Positions 58,025 through 64,000 of a stretch of 64,000 nt of DNA are shown here, piece after piece. Numbering within the stretch: position 1 is the first letter of the stretch; every line of letters begins with the position of its first letter. The notes beneath the pieces were generated by a model. That model worked only from the letters and a program-made list of their open reading frames with translations. It was not told the origin of the DNA and made no database searches. A program made the translations under genes and the position numbers. Origin of the DNA: Rhodoferax sp. PAMC 29310 (GTDB lineage Bacteria; Pseudomonadota; Gammaproteobacteria; Burkholderiales; Burkholderiaceae_C); the NCBI RefSeq assembly GCF_017948265.1, contig NZ_CP072852.1, positions 1,612,001 through 1,676,000 of the forward strand. The letters run 5' to 3'.

Positions 58025-58651
58025 ATGCATGAATCCTTAAGAATCGTTGTAGTGGCCCCCGATCTGGCGGTGGAAGATCCGGCAGACGACCATGCCATCA
58101 GCCAGGCGGAGCGGTCGCGCAGTCTTCGCATCGGCTTGCTGGAAAACGGCTTCAATCTGGTAGCGGTGCTGCCCGCCGATGTATTCCTGCAGGAGCGAAT
58201 CAATCAGCTTCAGCCCGACCTGATCATTGTGGATGCCGAAAGCGAGGCCCGTGATGCGCTTGAGCATGTGGTCATGGCCACCCGGGACGCGCGACGCCCC
58301 ATCGTGATGTTCACCAACAACAATGACACCTCCCAGGTGCGCCATGCTGTGGCATCCGGGGTTACGGCCTACATCGTCGCCGGGCTGTCCAGCGAACGCA
58401 TTCGCCCCATTTTGGACGTCGCCATGGCCCGTTTCCAGCACGAGCAGGCTTTGCGTCAGGAGCTGGCCGACACCAAGACTGAACTCAAAGACCGCAAAAC
58501 CATTGACCGCGCCAAAGGCCTGCTCATGCAGCGCCAAAACCTGAACGAACAGCAAGCTTTCGACAAGCTGCGCAAAACCGCCATGGACAAGGGACTGAAA
58601 CTGGCCGACGTGGCCCAGCGCATGCTGGACGTGGCCGACCTGCTCGCCTGA
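58025..58651 (+). CDS. nasT: ANTAR-domain response regulator, NasT-like antiterminator
   Basis: A 208-residue protein. Residues about 1-135 form a receiver-like domain with Asp70 in LIIVDAESEARDALEHV, but lacking the Lys of a classical receiver in the later strand (SGVTAYIVAGL). A coiled linker then leads to an ANTAR domain at about 153-208 (TIDRAKGLLMQRQNLNEQQAFDKLRKTAMDKG, LKLADVAQRMLDVADLLA, given in parts). ANTAR binds paired hexaloop hairpins in leader RNA. Its matching site is in the nrt leader (61257-61327). In other bacteria NasT is held by a nitrate sensor, NasS, not seen here. Starts 41 bases after oprM; the long upstream in-frame ORF is out-of-frame with it. Confidence 0.88.
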   Translation: MHESLRIVVVAPDLAVEDPADDHAISQAERSRSLRIGLLENGFNLVAVLPADVFLQERINQLQPDLIIVDAESEARDALEHVVMATRDARRPIVMFTNNNDTSQVRHAVASGVTAYIVAGLSSERIRPILDVAMARFQHEQALRQELADTKTELKDRKTIDRAKGLLMQRQNLNEQQAFDKLRKTAMDKGLKLADVAQRMLDVADLLA

Positions 58652-59504: not shown

Positions 59505-59510
59505 TAGAAT
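59505..59510 (+). promoter_or_regulatory. candidate -10 box for the glycine riboswitch transcript
   Basis: TAGAAT is five bases before the first aptamer base region. A -35 at the right distance is not clear, so this is tentative. Confidence 0.25.
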
Positions 59511-59514
59511 CCTG

Positions 59515-59730
59515 TCCGGCAGGAGAGAGAGCGTCCCAGACGCTCCACCGAAGGCGCAAACTCCCATGAACGCTCAGGTACACCCTCACCGGTGACGTAC
59601 TGCCACCATTTGTAAACGCCGTCTGGAGAGCCATCGCCACCCGCAAGGTGTCGGCGATGCACCGAAGGAGCAAGCTCCGCAGTCCACTGCGGTGTGAATC
59701 TCTCAGGTACCAAGGACAGGGGGAGCGGCA
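59515..59730 (+). ncRNA. tandem glycine riboswitch upstream of dadA
   Basis: Two glycine aptamers in a row. Aptamer 1 (about 59518-59616) has GGAGAGAGAGC, CCACCGAAGGCGCAAA and GCTCAGGTAC. Aptamer 2 (about 59621-59727) has CTGGAGAGCC, CACCGAAGGAGCAAGC and TCTCAGGTACCAAGGACAGG. These are the conserved glycine-binding core elements in the right order. The region after it (59731-59811) can fold CCGGGC/GCCCTGG without a strong T-tract, so control may act on translation or be an on-switch. The gene controlled is dadA, 80 bases downstream. Confidence 0.92.
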
Positions 59731-59811: not shown

Positions 59812-61089
59812 ATGCGTATCATCGTTCTTGGCAGCGGGCTTCTTGGCGTCAGTTCAGCCTATTACCTCTCCCAACAGGGTCATGAAGTCACCGTGGTGGA
59901 CCGCCAGTCCTCCCCGGCGGCGGAAACCAGTTTTGCCAACGGCGGGCAAATCTCGGTCAGCCATGCCGAGCCTTGGGCCAACCCCGGCGCGCCCATCAAG
60001 CTGCTGCAATGGCTGGGCAAAGAAGACGCGCCACTGCTGTTTCGCCTGCGGGCCGACATGCGCCAGTGGATGTGGGGATTGCAGTTTCTACGCGAGTGCA
60101 CACCGGCGCGCACCCGCCACAACATTCAGCAAATCGTGCGCCTGGGCACTTACAGCCGCGACACATTGCAGCAACTGCGCCGCGACACGGGCATTGAGTA
60201 CGACCAGCGCACGCAAGGTATTCTGCATTTTTACACCTCGCAAAAAGAGTTTGACGCCGCTCTGGCACCCACCGAGCAAATGCGCGAACTGGGGTGCGAG
60301 CGCAACATCGTGAGCGCCGACGAGGCCGTTCGTCTGGAGCCCACCCTGGGCCATATTCGCCCACAGTTGGCCGGTGCCACCTACACCGCCGAAGACGAGT
60401 CGGGTGACGCCAATCGCTTTGCCCGCGAGTTGGTCAAACTGTGCGAAGCCAATGGGGTGAAGTTTTTTATGAACCACACCATCACCGCCTTGCGCGAAGC
60501 GGGTGGACAGATTGACCACGTGGAGGCCACCGACAACGAGGGCCGCTTCCAGCGCCTGTACGCAGACTCATACGTGATGGCCATGGGGTCTTTCAGCCCG
60601 TTGTACCTGAAGCAGCTCGGCATCAAACTGCCTATTTATCCCGCCAAAGGCTATTCGGTCACCATGCCCGTGAAGGACGCCAACATGGCGCACCAGGTCA
60701 GCTTGACGGATGATGAATTCAAACTGGTTTTTTCACGCCTGACGCCGGTGAATGGCGACGGCACCGACCGCTTGCGCATTGCCGGCACGGCGGAGTTCAA
60801 TGGCTATGACCGCGACCTGAACCGCATTCGCTGCGAAGCCATCGTCCGCCGGGTGGAGCAACTGTTCCCCGGAGCCGGCGACGCCACCCAAGCCAGTTTC
60901 TGGAGCGGCCTTCGCCCCGCTACACCCAGCAACGTGCCGCTGATCGGCAAAAGCAAGCTGCCCAACCTGTTCCTCAACACCGGCCACGGCACGCTGGGCT
61001 GGACGCACGCTTGTGGCTCCGGCAAATCCATTGCCCGCATCGTGAGTGGGTTGACGCCCGAAGTGGACTTTGCGTTTACCCAAGGCTGA
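59812..61089 (+). CDS. dadA: D-amino acid dehydrogenase (DadA family)
   Basis: A 425-residue FAD-dependent oxidoreductase of the DAO fold. The FAD motif is VLGSGLLGVSSAYYLSQQGHEVTVVDR (about 4-30). Also seen: ETSFANGGQISVSHAEPWANPGAP, the YPAKGYSVTMPV strand, and the C-terminal NTGHGTLGWTHACGSGKSIA. DadA oxidises D-amino acids (chiefly D-alanine) and passes electrons to the respiratory chain. Preceded by a glycine riboswitch, which suggests the enzyme acts on glycine or a related substrate, or that glycine signals amino acid excess. AAGG seven bases before the ATG. Confidence 0.9.
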   Translation: MRIIVLGSGLLGVSSAYYLSQQGHEVTVVDRQSSPAAETSFANGGQISVSHAEPWANPGAPIKLLQWLGKEDAPLLFRLRADMRQWMWGLQFLRECTPARTRHNIQQIVRLGTYSRDTLQQLRRDTGIEYDQRTQGILHFYTSQKEFDAALAPTEQMRELGCERNIVSADEAVRLEPTLGHIRPQLAGATYTAEDESGDANRFARELVKLCEANGVKFFMNHTITALREAGGQIDHVEATDNEGRFQRLYADSYVMAMGSFSPLYLKQLGIKLPIYPAKGYSVTMPVKDANMAHQVSLTDDEFKLVFSRLTPVNGDGTDRLRIAGTAEFNGYDRDLNRIRCEAIVRRVEQLFPGAGDATQASFWSGLRPATPSNVPLIGKSKLPNLFLNTGHGTLGWTHACGSGKSIARIVSGLTPEVDFAFTQG

Positions 61090-61107: not shown

Positions 61108-61130
61108 AGGATGGTGCACCGCACCATCCT
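61108..61130 (+). terminator. strong hairpin after dadA, possible terminator
   Basis: AGGATGGTGC (61108-61117) pairs with GCACCATCCT (61121-61130) over 10 bp with a 3-base loop. No T-tract follows, so it may be a processing or transcription-blocking element rather than a full intrinsic terminator. It is 19 bases after the dadA stop. Confidence 0.5.
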
Positions 61131-61226
61131 CGTGCTGATTCACACTTAGACAAGAAATTGACACCTAGCCCTTGTCCGATATGCGGAAGAAGCTACATAT
61201 TCGATAGCAACTCACTCTCAAAAAAG

Positions 61227-61244
61227 TTGGCACAGTGATTGCTT
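61227..61244 (+). promoter_or_regulatory. sigma-54 promoter of the nrt operon
   Basis: TTGGCACAGTGATTGCTT matches the -24/-12 consensus TGGCAC-N5-TTGC, with GG and GC separated by exactly ten bases. Transcription would begin about 12 bases after the GC, near 61254, immediately before the first leader hairpin. It implies control by an NtrC-type enhancer protein, though I saw no clear NtrC site upstream. Confidence 0.75.
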
Positions 61245-61256
61245 AGACATTGATAC

Positions 61257-61327
61257 GACCAAAGTAGGTCACCAGACGGGTTGAGTCCAAAGGCGGATTC
61301 AACCGGTCGATCCGGACAAAGGCGTCC
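61257..61327 (+). ncRNA. ANTAR antitermination leader: three hexaloop hairpins
   Basis: Hairpin 1 (61257-61270): GACC, loop AAAGTA, GGTC. Hairpin 2 (61279-61304): a 10-bp stem, loop AAAGGC. Hairpin 3 (61314-61327): GGAC, loop AAAGGC, GTCC. Each six-base loop has A at position 1 and G at position 4, the signature of ANTAR-binding sites. Hairpin 3 uses the bases of the 5' arm of the terminator (61318-61327), so it and the terminator are mutually exclusive. This suits NasT (58025-58651) as the antiterminator. Two hairpins are usual; a third is notable. Confidence 0.85.
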
Positions 61328-61381
61328 CCACCTGCACGCGGCTTGCACCAAGCCCCGCGCAGCGTGAGGACGCCTTTTTTT
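61318..61381 (+). terminator. leader terminator (attenuator) of the nrt operon
   Basis: AAAGGCGTCC (61318-61327) pairs with GGACGCCTTT (61368-61377) as the 10-bp base of a long GC-rich hairpin (inner arms CTGC-CGCG-GCTT against AAGC-CGCG-CAG), followed by a T-tract (61375-61381). It lies 36 bases before nrtA and ends the leader unless hairpin 3 forms. Confidence 0.88.
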
Positions 61382-61416
61382 GCTTTTCGTTTGTTTTTAA
61401 ACCTTGGAGAAGACAC

Positions 61417-62661
61417 ATGACTGACTTACTCGCCAATTCACTGAGCCGACGGACTGTGCTGCAATCGGCCGCCGTGGGCGCCATCGGTATCAGCCCCGCG
61501 CTGCGCTCGGTGGTGTACGCCGGTGGCTCTGACGCGCCAGAAAAAACCGAGGTCAAGATTGGATTCATTCCCCTGACCGATTGCGCCAGCGTGGTGATGG
61601 CCTCCGTGCTGGGGTTTGACAAGAAATACGGCGTCAAGATCATTCCCAGCAAGGAAGCGTCTTGGGCGGGTGTGCGCGACAAGCTGGTCAATGGCGAACT
61701 GGACTTTGCCCACGTGCTTTACGGTCTGGTCTACGGCGTTCACCTGGGCGTGAGCGGGCCCAAAAAAGACATGGCCGTGCTGATGACGCTGAACAACAAC
61801 GGCCAGGGCATCACCCTGTCCAAGGCCCTGGCCGACAAGGGCGCGGTCGATCTGGCGGGACTGGTGTCCCTGATGAAGAAAGAACCCCGCGAATACACCT
61901 TTGCCCAAACTTTCCCCACCGGCACCCACGCCATGTGGTTGTACTACTGGCTGGCCTCGGCCGGAGTGAACCCGTTCAAGGACGTGCGCTGCATTGTGGT
62001 GCCCCCGCCCCAAATGGTGGCGAATATGCGGGTCGGCAACATGGACGGCTTCAGCGTGGGTGAACCCTGGAACCACCGCGCCATCATGGACGGGATTGGT
62101 GTATCCGCTGCCACTTCGCAGGACGTCTGGAAAGACCACCCCGAGAAGGTGCTGGGCACCACGTCAGAGTTCGTCAAGAACAACCCCAACACCGCCCGCG
62201 CAGTCACCATGGCGATTCTGGAAGCCAGCCGCTGGATTGACGCCAGCCTTCAGAACAAGCTGAAGATGGCCGAAACCGTGGCGCAGAAGTCTTACATCAA
62301 CACCGGGGTCGACGCCATCAACCAGCGCATTCTGGGCCGCTACCAAAACGGCATGGGCAAAACTTGGGACGACCCCAATCACATGAAATTCTTCAACGAC
62401 GGCGCGGTGAACTTCCCCTATCTGTCAGACGGCATGTGGTTTCTAACCCAGCACAAGCGTTGGGGCTTGCTGGACGCCCACCCTGACTACCTCAAGGTGG
62501 CCAAGGAGATCAACCAGATTGACCTCTACAAGCAGGCCGCCTCAGCACTCAAGATCAACGTGCCCAAAGACGTGATGCGCACCTCCACCCTGATGGACGG
62601 CGTGGTATGGGATGGCAAGGACCCCAAAAAGTACGCCGACAGTTTCAAAGTCAAAGCCTGA
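61417..62661 (+). CDS. nrtA: nitrate ABC transporter binding protein NrtA
   Basis: A 414-residue periplasmic nitrate/nitrite-binding protein. The N-terminus has a twin-arginine signal (SRRTVLQSAAVGAIGIS, residues 9-25). EVKIGFIPLTDCASVVMA is the NrtA/CynS/Ssu-type start. The block TFPTGTHAMWLYYWLASAGV and the GEPWNHRAIMDGIG ligand-site region identify the NrtA/CmpA type. GGAGA precedes the ATG. First gene of the operon, under the sigma-54 promoter and ANTAR leader. Confidence 0.92.
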   Translation: MTDLLANSLSRRTVLQSAAVGAIGISPALRSVVYAGGSDAPEKTEVKIGFIPLTDCASVVMASVLGFDKKYGVKIIPSKEASWAGVRDKLVNGELDFAHVLYGLVYGVHLGVSGPKKDMAVLMTLNNNGQGITLSKALADKGAVDLAGLVSLMKKEPREYTFAQTFPTGTHAMWLYYWLASAGVNPFKDVRCIVVPPPQMVANMRVGNMDGFSVGEPWNHRAIMDGIGVSAATSQDVWKDHPEKVLGTTSEFVKNNPNTARAVTMAILEASRWIDASLQNKLKMAETVAQKSYINTGVDAINQRILGRYQNGMGKTWDDPNHMKFFNDGAVNFPYLSDGMWFLTQHKRWGLLDAHPDYLKVAKEINQIDLYKQAASALKINVPKDVMRTSTLMDGVVWDGKDPKKYADSFKVKA

Positions 62662-62716: not shown

Positions 62717-63640
62717 ATGGTTAGCGCCGTATTTCACTCGCCCCTAGGCCCCGTGGCCGAGGGCATTGCGATCCCCAAAGAAAACTCATCCCGCGTGAGC
62801 ACTTCAAGAGAGCCCGCGGTCACTGTGGCAACCGCCACGCCGGAGCGCACACCCTTTGACTGGCGCGCCCTCGGCATGGCCGTGCTGCCGCCGCTGCTGG
62901 GCTTTGCCTTGCTGGTCGGGGTGTGGGCCCTGGTCAGCGTGGGAACGAGCAACAGCATCCCCGGACCCCTTCCAACCTTCAAGCAAGCGGTGATACTGTT
63001 CAGCGATCCGTTCTACAGCAACGGCCCCAACGACCAGGGCGTGGGCTGGAATATTTTGATGTCGCTGCAGCGCGTGGCGGTCGGGTTTGGGTTGGCGGCA
63101 CTGGTTGGCATTCCCGCCGGCTTTGTGATTGGCCGCTTTGAATTCATGAGCCGCATGTTCAACCCGTTGATCAGTCTGATGCGCCCGGTCTCGCCACTGG
63201 CTTGGTTGCCCATTGGTTTGCTGGTGTTCAAGGGCGCGGACCCGGCCGCCATCTGGACCATCTTCATCTGCTCTATCTGGCCCATGATCATCAACACCGC
63301 CGTGGGCGTGCAACGCGTGCCACAGGACTACATGAACGTCGCCCGGGTGCTGAACCTGTCCGAGTGGAAGATCGTGACCAAAATCCTGTTTCCCTCCGTC
63401 TTGCCCTACATGCTGACAGGCGTGCGCCTGGCCGTGGGCACGGCCTGGCTGGTGATCGTTGCGGCTGAGATGCTGACTGGCGGCGTAGGCATTGGCTTCT
63501 GGGTCTGGGACGAGTGGAACAACCTCAATGTGACCAACATCATCGTGGCCATCTTTGTCATTGGCGTGGTTGGCCTGGTACTGGAACATGCACTGATCAA
63601 GCTCGCCACCGCCTTCACTTTTGAGGAAGTCAAATCATGA
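62717..63640 (+). CDS. nrtB: nitrate ABC transporter permease NrtB
   Basis: A 307-residue permease with about six TM helices and the binding-protein-dependent loop ([24 protein letters not shown], in part) that contacts the ATPase. [21 protein letters not shown] is typical of NrtB/SsuC-type permeases. The first 50 residues are a poorly conserved hydrophilic extension. AAGGAG six bases ahead makes 62717 the start; the longer ORF from 62612 overlaps nrtA. Overlaps the next gene by ATGA. Confidence 0.92.
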
Positions 63641-64000
63641 ACGAAAAACTGAACACCCATTTCATTGAAATCGCCGGAGTTGAGCAGACCTTCAAAACCA
63701 AAAAGGGCCCGTTTTGCGCCCTGCGCGACATTCACCTCACGGTGGCCAAAGGCGAGTTTGTGGCCTTGATCGGGCACTCCGGTTGCGGCAAGTCCACCTT
63801 GCTCAACCTCATTGCCGGGTTGACCACACCCACCCAAGGCACGCTCTTGTGCGCCAACCGCGAGATTGCCGGACCTGGCCCGGAGCGCGCGGTGGTGTTC
63901 CAGAACCACTCCTTGCTGCCTTGGCTCACCTGCTTTGAGAACATCTACCTGGGCGTGGAGCGCGTGTTCGGCTCCGGCAACCGCACTGGCGCCGTGGCTG
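63637..64000 (+). CDS. nrtC: nitrate ABC transporter ATP-binding protein (partial)
   Basis: The first 121 codons of an ATPase. Walker A is GHSGCGKST (about residues 47-55) and the Q-loop is [21 protein letters not shown], typical of NrtC/NrtD/SsuB. It is cut off by the window edge, so it cannot be told whether it carries the NrtC C-terminal NrtA-like domain. The start is in an ATGA overlap with nrtB. Confidence 0.92.

Follow-up and report, generated by a model that had tools for sequence, protein, structure and literature searches.

The stretch of DNA analysed here (the window; 64,000 nucleotides) is part of a one-contig genome of 4.59 Mb (G000, positions 1612001-1676000), and its 3' end carries the nrtABC genes for nitrate transport, preceded by a control region in which a GCAC-N7-GTGC dyad, a sigma-54 promoter, three hairpins with AxxGxx hexaloops and an intrinsic terminator follow one another 5' of nrtA (Table 1). 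The top PDB match of the window NrtA is 2g29, also an NrtA, and its nearest named relatives come from Burkholderiales, including Comamonadaceae, with many from Rhodoferax (among the best 80 of 584 relatives, a list that may omit records very close to the window). A preliminary description of this DNA had placed a NasT-like ANTAR protein 3 kb upstream, and the gene found there does encode an ANTAR domain according to Pfam; the PDB relatives of its product are 1s8n, 6wsh, and 4akk. In the window, nasT is separated from nrtA by a glyoxalase-like gene and by a gene of the D-amino acid dehydrogenase family that has a tandem glycine riboswitch in front of it. The riboswitch (59510-59729) consists of two RF00504 matches above the gathering score, and the dehydrogenase-family gene behind it occupies 59812-61089. 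Elsewhere in the genome (L009; G000 2943000-2952000) there is a second nrtABC-like set with an NrtA relative of its own (PF13379, 283.7 bits), adjoining what appear by eye to be a NarL-type regulator and a sensor kinase.

Table 1. Features of the nasT-nrtABC region in window coordinates
Feature	Position	Strand	Characteristics
nasT-like gene	58025-58651	+	Weak receiver and ANTAR domains; Pfam ANTAR 73.3 bits; Response_reg 20.9 bits, under cut-off
NtrC-type dyad	61121-61135	+	GCAC-N7-GTGC; 106 bp 5' of promoter
Sigma-54 promoter	61227-61243	+	TTGGCACAgtgaTTGCT; -24 TTGGCACA, -12 TTGCT; exact consensus
Predicted leader RNA	61254-61381	+	About 128 nt long when terminated; predicted start 12 nt past the -12 C
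HP1, extra 5' hairpin	61257-61270	+	GACC[AAAGTA]GGTC
HP2, proposed ANTAR recruitment hairpin	61279-61304	+	10-bp stem, loop AAAGGC; GGTTGAGTCC[AAAGGC]GGATTCAACC
HP3, proposed antiterminator hairpin	61314-61327	+	GGAC[AAAGGC]GTCC
Intrinsic terminator	61318-61381	+	5' arm 61318-61327; 3' arm from 61368; U tract 61375-61381 (seven Ts)
nrtA, nitrate-binding protein with twin-arginine signal motif	61417-62661	+	Pfam NMT1_2 335.8 bits
nrtB, nitrate ABC transporter permease	62717-63640	+	NCBIfam TIGR01183 254 bits, above cut-off
nrtC, nitrate ABC transporter ATPase	63637-64000	+	Truncated by window end; whole gene L003:7638-8471

The sigma-54 promoter, also part of the preliminary description, is the sole match in the window to TGGCACRN4TTGCW at no more than one mismatch, a count which proves nothing alone, as about 3 chance matches would be expected. 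The exact pattern is found 6 times in the 4.59-Mb genome, this promoter included, vs. 0 times for the reversed pattern. A relaxed form of it recurs in front of nrtA in 74 of 80 loci from relatives (the best 80 of 584); the 6 loci in which it was not found (viz. L043, L048, L051, L061, L068, and L084) count against the assignment, and in one of these, L051, the contig ends at the nrtA-family gene and hence offers no promoter to score. NtrC binds dyads of the GCAC-N7-GTGC type, and the dyad upstream of the promoter, which is absent from the preliminary description and extends its reading of the promoter, is on its sequence a putative NtrC site. Of 75 loci, 63 have such a dyad no more than 170 bp 5' of the promoter, vs. 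a shuffle mean of 0.56 (maximum 4), and none of the 75 has one in a downstream control region. A stricter 17-bp NtrC consensus was also tried, but its best match in the window has 3 mismatches, and the GCAC-N7-GTGC core was relied upon instead. One RpoN match (214 bits) was obtained in the genome, along with one NtrC protein above the curated cut-off, so that a -24/-12 promoter, an upstream dyad, rpoN and ntrC, all characteristic of a sigma-54/NtrC regulon, are present together. In Acidovorax citrulli, which is of the same family as the window organism, the available part of one report describes an ntrC deletion that does not grow on nitrate as sole nitrogen source and in which the gene termed nasS is down and nasT is up (PMC10052978).

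The 5' end of the predicted leader is placed from promoter geometry and its 3' end is read as the end of the U tract. The minimum-free-energy fold of its first part (RNA 61253-61335) consists of exactly the three hairpins (-32.7 kcal/mol, z -3.6), with linkers of 8 nt (61271-61278) and 9 nt (61305-61313) as measured from the hexaloop stems; the stem of HP2 can be extended by 3 bp (GAC 61275-61277 with GTC 61306-61308). All three loops have A at position 1 and G at position 4 (A1-G4) and are closed by a C:G pair. Three A1-G4 hexaloop hairpins were obtained in none of 20,000 dinucleotide shuffles, and two in 16 of 20,000, when the first 110 nt of the leader, starting at the base after TTGC, were shuffled. 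The terminator (-40.3 kcal/mol, z -7.65) combines a 10-bp lower stem (AAAGGCGUCC/GGACGCCUUU) with a long upper one; a simple terminator scan restricted to loops of 3-8 reported none in the leader. Its 5' arm is made up of the loop and the 3' arm of HP3, and hence HP3 and the terminator are mutually exclusive and the ANTAR-readable loop of HP3 is hidden once the terminator forms. Both the A-x-x-G-x-x hexaloops and the incompatibility of the terminator with the last hairpin, which the preliminary description had read here, are thus borne out.

Conservation of the leader was analysed in the best 80 loci of the 584 NrtA relatives found, 74 of which are sigma-54-positive and, with the window, provide 75 leaders for comparison. 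An A1-G4 hexaloop hairpin of at least 3 bp is present in 73 of these, HP3 in 74 (the loop beginning with A in 67 and with G in 7, the latter counting against the reading), and both together in 72; as the HP1 and HP2 routines returned one identical hairpin in 11 rows, a separate HP2 is not claimed for all leaders. The terminator pairs with the 3' arm of HP3 in 70/75 leaders, and in 70 of the 72 loci that could be tested, the stretch before the T run pairs with the arm and loop of HP3, vs. 311 of 1440 shuffled cores, a soft control given that so many shuffled cores still pass. HP3 itself is nearly invariant, the combination of its 5' arm, its 3' arm and the terminator being GGAC/GTCC/GGAC in 59 leaders, GAAC/GTTC/GARC in 7 and other in 4, and the change from GGAC/GTCC to GAAC/GTTC is matched by a change in the terminator arm in 7 of 8 testable cases. 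An alignment was made from 48 of the 58 leaders with standard spacing; 94.0% of its pair cells are standard and 95.8% of the HP1 stem cells are paired, percentages that lean upward because ten of the more divergent leaders (viz. L052, L054, L058, L062, L063, L067, L070, L085, L089, and L090) were excluded. Within the 48 leaders, double-sided changes affect 10 of 16 pairs (in HP2, 7 of 8), the covariation score is 0.349 vs. 0.138, and none of 500 shuffles attains any of five covariation measures. A covariance model built from them (R1) gave, at E <= 0.01 and with strict filters, one match in the window genome and matches in 48 of 150 family genomes; in these 150 genomes, 38 of 53 matches lie no more than 800 bp 5' of an nrtA-family gene. 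A chance structure, considered as an explanation of the leader, was rejected on the basis of the shuffles, the fold energies and the covariation.

The conservation of HP1 is of a different kind. In three-hairpin leaders its stem lies a few bases past the expected start, and its loop is A1-G4 in 30 of the 41 scored leaders with a NasT neighbour, vs. 2 of 14 with an ANTAR-only match upstream (Fisher p 0.0003, which is uncorrected for the kinship of the genera and is not independent evidence because they are related), 2 of 7 without an ANTAR match in the locus, and 0 of 1 classed as other; 11 NasT leaders and 1 without a match have other spacing and were set aside from this scoring. Two loci were reclassed, viz. 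L052 of the ANTAR-only group, whose NasT is cut by the contig end, and L049 of the other class, which is a NIT-ANTAR by Pfam, and the counts then become 31/42 vs. 1/14. The remaining leaders have HP1 loops such as UUCG or GCAA. The proposal that HP1 is a conserved ANTAR ligand is hence upheld only in part, the A1-G4 loop being restricted to a portion of the relatives, and a role of HP1 in ANTAR binding appears doubtful from these sequences. HP1 may serve NasT as a landing station, in keeping with the successive-binding model as the available text of PMC8934654 presents it, or a hairpin that protects the 5' end. No three-hairpin ANTAR leader was seen in a limited search of the accessible portions of the literature on ANTAR leaders, which is no proof of absence. 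Three A1-G4 hexaloop hairpins in series were also observed at L168, L174, and L179, from other families of the order, and the three-hairpin form is therefore not confined to the family of the window organism.

Two types of regulator occur beside these leaders. Receiver-like and ANTAR domains, as expected for the NasT of a NasS-NasT system, are combined in the window protein, which is 39% identical to the NasT of locus L121 (genome G162), where a NasS adjoins it. A NasT of at least 108 bits is encoded directly upstream (within 700 bp) of an nrtA-family gene in 62 of the 72 family genomes that have NasT; the window nasT stands at 3 kb from nrtA behind unrelated genes, which counts against a role in attenuation. 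In 26 further genomes, none of which has NasT, an ANTAR match in a long frame occupies the place of NasT, so that the 102 genomes with an nrtA-family match divide into 71 with NasT, these 26, and 5 with neither. The rows compared comprise the 72 NasT proteins at >=108 bits and 28 selected ANTAR-only proteins, to the exclusion of other ANTAR-only and weaker receiver-ANTAR proteins; the 26 are those neighbours that were found rather than all such ANTAR proteins, and are counted as ANTAR matches without a domain scan. In the named loci, ten NIT-type proteins were located and eight scanned with Pfam, and these eight proteins at the place of NasT, six of them from Variovorax, are NIT-ANTAR proteins of the NasR type. 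A leader of the same kind occurs beside NasT and beside NIT-ANTAR, and this exchange of regulators at one place suggests nitrate as the signal.

The route by which nitrate would reach NasT is less evident. In Paracoccus, according to the available part of PMC3795266, NasT is held by NasS until nitrate binds. The NasS of L121 has a PF13379 score of 320 bits, adjoins NasT and shows no signal-like start by eye. A separate cytoplasmic NasS was not found in the window genome, in which only two proteins exceed 100 bits for PF13379, viz. the window NrtA and the second NrtA relative. Both of these have an N-terminal twin-arginine motif, which was read by pattern and by eye rather than with a signal predictor and which recurs in all 80 homologues of the window NrtA (best 80 of 584). 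A NasS is expected to be an NrtA-like sensor without an export signal, and the close relatives found carry the twin-arginine motif instead. With the NasS of L121 as query at E <= 1e-60, a threshold that a more divergent NasS would escape, a match was obtained in 102 of 150 family genomes, single in 100 and accompanied by a second, weaker one in two; the one close relative found in the window genome is the window NrtA, at 52% identity. Because almost all of the positive family genomes have a single match of the NasS/NrtA type, the gene termed nasS in A. citrulli is, by our own inference, probably an nrtA-type gene behind this kind of leader. The preliminary description had called the system complete, and this is too strong, because no separate cytoplasmic NasS was found to supply the nitrate input of NasT.

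A second ANTAR protein of 451 aa is encoded outside the window on the minus strand (L003:15956-17311; G000 1683958-1685310), and comprises a receiver-like domain, an ANTAR domain and two PilJ stretches by Pfam. Its second PilJ stretch weakly matches the chemotaxis transducer 6gcv (E 0.0027), which we take to be the nitrate-binding McpN. Both stretches have a G-x-x-R motif of the kind described for nitrate sensors in the available text of PMC8199190. Relatives that combine ANTAR with PilJ are present in 21 of 150 family genomes (22 counting a partial match in G303), and this architecture, receiver-ANTAR-PilJ2, may on its sequence represent a one-component ANTAR design for nitrate sensing, in addition to that of NasR.

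Comparison with known leaders places the window leader close to two Rfam families and inside neither. The covariance search called for in the preliminary description gave no match on the window leader at Rfam gathering thresholds, which counts against membership; below them, the leader aligns in register with both P11 (RF00625; 35 bits, cut-off 70) and narK RNA (RF03032; 27.4 bits, cut-off 43.2). P11, the same RNA as NalA, shares with the window leader the sigma-54 promoter, a hexaloop hairpin, a NasT regulator and the GGAC[AAAGGC]GTCC antiterminator hairpin within a terminator arm, the alignment covering model positions 1-139. The window leader differs from it in preceding nrtABC, in its extra 5' HP1 and in having no separate cytoplasmic NasS gene found in its genome; it would operate like NalA but is not assigned to that family. 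A P11 match at 126 bits in G162 (L121), examined by eye, has the hairpins CUC[AACGUG]GAG and GGAC[AAAGGC]GUCC without HP1, and provides a leader of the same kind in a genome with adjacent NasS and NasT. The narK RNA shares the promoter, a hexaloop hairpin and an AAAGnC hairpin with the window leader, and its Rfam consensus contains one hairpin and a 5' end that is promoter sequence. It has 36 matches in 35 of 200 order genomes, 30 of which were examined as loci of 3 kb. By a hand count, 23 of the 30 combine a sigma-54 match with two or more A1-G4 hexaloops behind it; an nrtA-family match is present in 24, NasT or another ANTAR protein is matched in 20, and in 7 the promoter pattern is missing or misplaced. 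Hence RF00625 and RF03032 both appear to describe this ANTAR leader, with its untranscribed sigma-54 -24/-12 promoter included.

For the experimentally studied systems, our comparisons extend to the available portions of the reports cited. The NalA leader of nirBD in Pseudomonas is sigma-54/NtrC-started, and NasT overcomes its terminator (PMC12830290). The nasF leader of Klebsiella has A1-G4 hexaloops like those of the window leader, in a two-hairpin ANTAR element for nitrate antitermination by NasR (PMC7496416); unlike NasR, which is a NIT-ANTAR protein, the window regulator is of the NasT type, and it is the Variovorax-type relatives that carry NIT-ANTAR at this place. The nasA leader of Paracoccus likewise combines hairpins with a NasT-type protein (PMC3795266, PMC5424462), but in the window genome no separate NasS gene was found to go with it. 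In the eut leaders of Enterococcus, hexaloops are bound in succession by EutV and the second hairpin opposes the terminator (PMC3369931, PMC8934654); there are two hairpins and a histidine kinase input there, as opposed to three hairpins here, and the linkers of the window leader fall inside the range of about 5-12 nt in the eut genes (PMC3369931). Within the text of these sources, the nearest precedent is Pseudomonas NalA/P11. Dual control is therefore not new as a principle, because NalA is already both sigma-54/NtrC-started and NasT-antiterminated (PMC12830290); what sets the present case apart from NalA is the third, 5' hairpin, the absence of a separate NasS among the genes found, and the NIT-ANTAR in the place of NasT in Variovorax-type relatives. 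Judged by its sequence, the leader would best be described as a sigma-54-started nitrate leader under ANTAR control, in a variant with three hairpins.

The nrtABC leader is very likely an attenuator controlled by nitrogen status and by an ANTAR protein. Its sequence, fold, conservation and gene order were observed; NtrC action, protein binding, read-through and the response to nitrate are deduced from them. When nitrogen is limiting, NtrC at or near the dyad would activate sigma-54 polymerase at the promoter, as the site, its conservation and the genes present suggest. By default the transcript would stop at 61381, the loop and 3' arm of HP3 being engaged in the terminator in the predicted fold. 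Active NasT would bind the hexaloop hairpins as they emerge, being recruited on HP1/HP2 and then moving to HP3, and by holding HP3 it would block the terminator, so that nrtA is transcribed, as expected from the work on EutV, NasR and NasT. The two-layer logic of the dual control proposed in the preliminary description is thus backed by conservation, covariation and the NtrC-type dyad, and the part of it left unsupported is the nitrate input to NasT.

It is this input that gives room to other readings. NasT might be a constitutive antiterminator, so that the operon answers to nitrogen status through sigma-54/NtrC only and not to nitrate; the lack of a separate NasS among the proteins found, the twin-arginine motifs of both high-scoring PF13379 proteins as against the NasS of L121, and the single matches of the family genomes (at a threshold that would miss a divergent NasS) all agree with this, but in relatives this place is taken by NIT-ANTAR, which is designed to sense nitrate, and an ever-overridden terminator would hardly be kept so conserved, and we regard this reading as unlikely. 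Unlikely as well is a double role for the Tat-exported NrtA, whose folded cytoplasmic precursor would act as a NasS and keep NasT until nitrate binds. Tat substrates fold before export, NrtA is the one close NasS relative found, and nrtA comes first after the leader and directly follows nasT in the 62 genomes counted above; against this, NrtA has the same signal motif by sequence in the genomes with NIT-ANTAR, in which it would not be needed for this role.

The nitrate-sensing regulator of the leader, alone or together with NasT, could instead be the receiver-ANTAR-PilJ2 protein, in view of its G-x-x-R motifs and its weak match to 6gcv. This protein is restricted to the minority of family genomes noted above and is missing from 59 of the 72 NasT genomes, which leaves a PilJ-ANTAR protein unsupported as a general partner of NasT, and it has a divergent sigma-54 leader of its own with different loops; its action on the nrtABC leader is accordingly quite improbable. 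The short transcript could also serve mainly as a small RNA in trans, with attenuation secondary, as is suggested by the predicted terminated RNA and by Rfam, where P11 is a Pseudomonas sRNA labelled as Gene. The position of the leader, most model matches being close upstream of an nrtA-family gene, its three-strand covariation and the overlap of HP3 with the terminator suit attenuation instead, and we consider a mainly trans-acting RNA highly improbable.

Beyond the attenuator itself, we tentatively raise the possibility that NasT in Burkholderiaceae (GTDB) works without a dedicated cytoplasmic NasS and takes its nitrate signal from elsewhere (e.g. from NrtA before export or from NasT itself), that the leader has been passed between NasT and NIT-ANTAR, and that HP1, A1-G4 mainly beside NasT, is an added landing station. 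These leaders represent a natural swap experiment, in which one kind of RNA switch in front of one gene is combined with NasT in some genera and with NIT-ANTAR in others. They make testable the switching of NasT where NasS is absent, and a use of extra hexaloops as loading stations by ANTAR proteins that bind in succession, a model given in the available text of PMC8934654. They also suggest that the Rfam families P11 and narK RNA belong to a single kind of ANTAR leader, in which an untranscribed promoter has been taken for conserved RNA.

A further leader lies outside the window, 5' of nirB and divergent from the gene of the receiver-ANTAR-PilJ2 protein (L003:17330-17444, plus strand), and consists of a sigma-54 promoter and three hairpins with six-base loops; the z-score of its fold is only -1.5. 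Fifteen leaders of this type were aligned (its own, 3 from named loci, and 11 of 16 fetched). A run of five Ts is missing from 10 of the 15 in the stretch examined, and a mechanism other than intrinsic termination is therefore possible. A first hairpin close to GGGYGU[RACGAN]GCRCCC recurs in these leaders 5' of nirB or narK.
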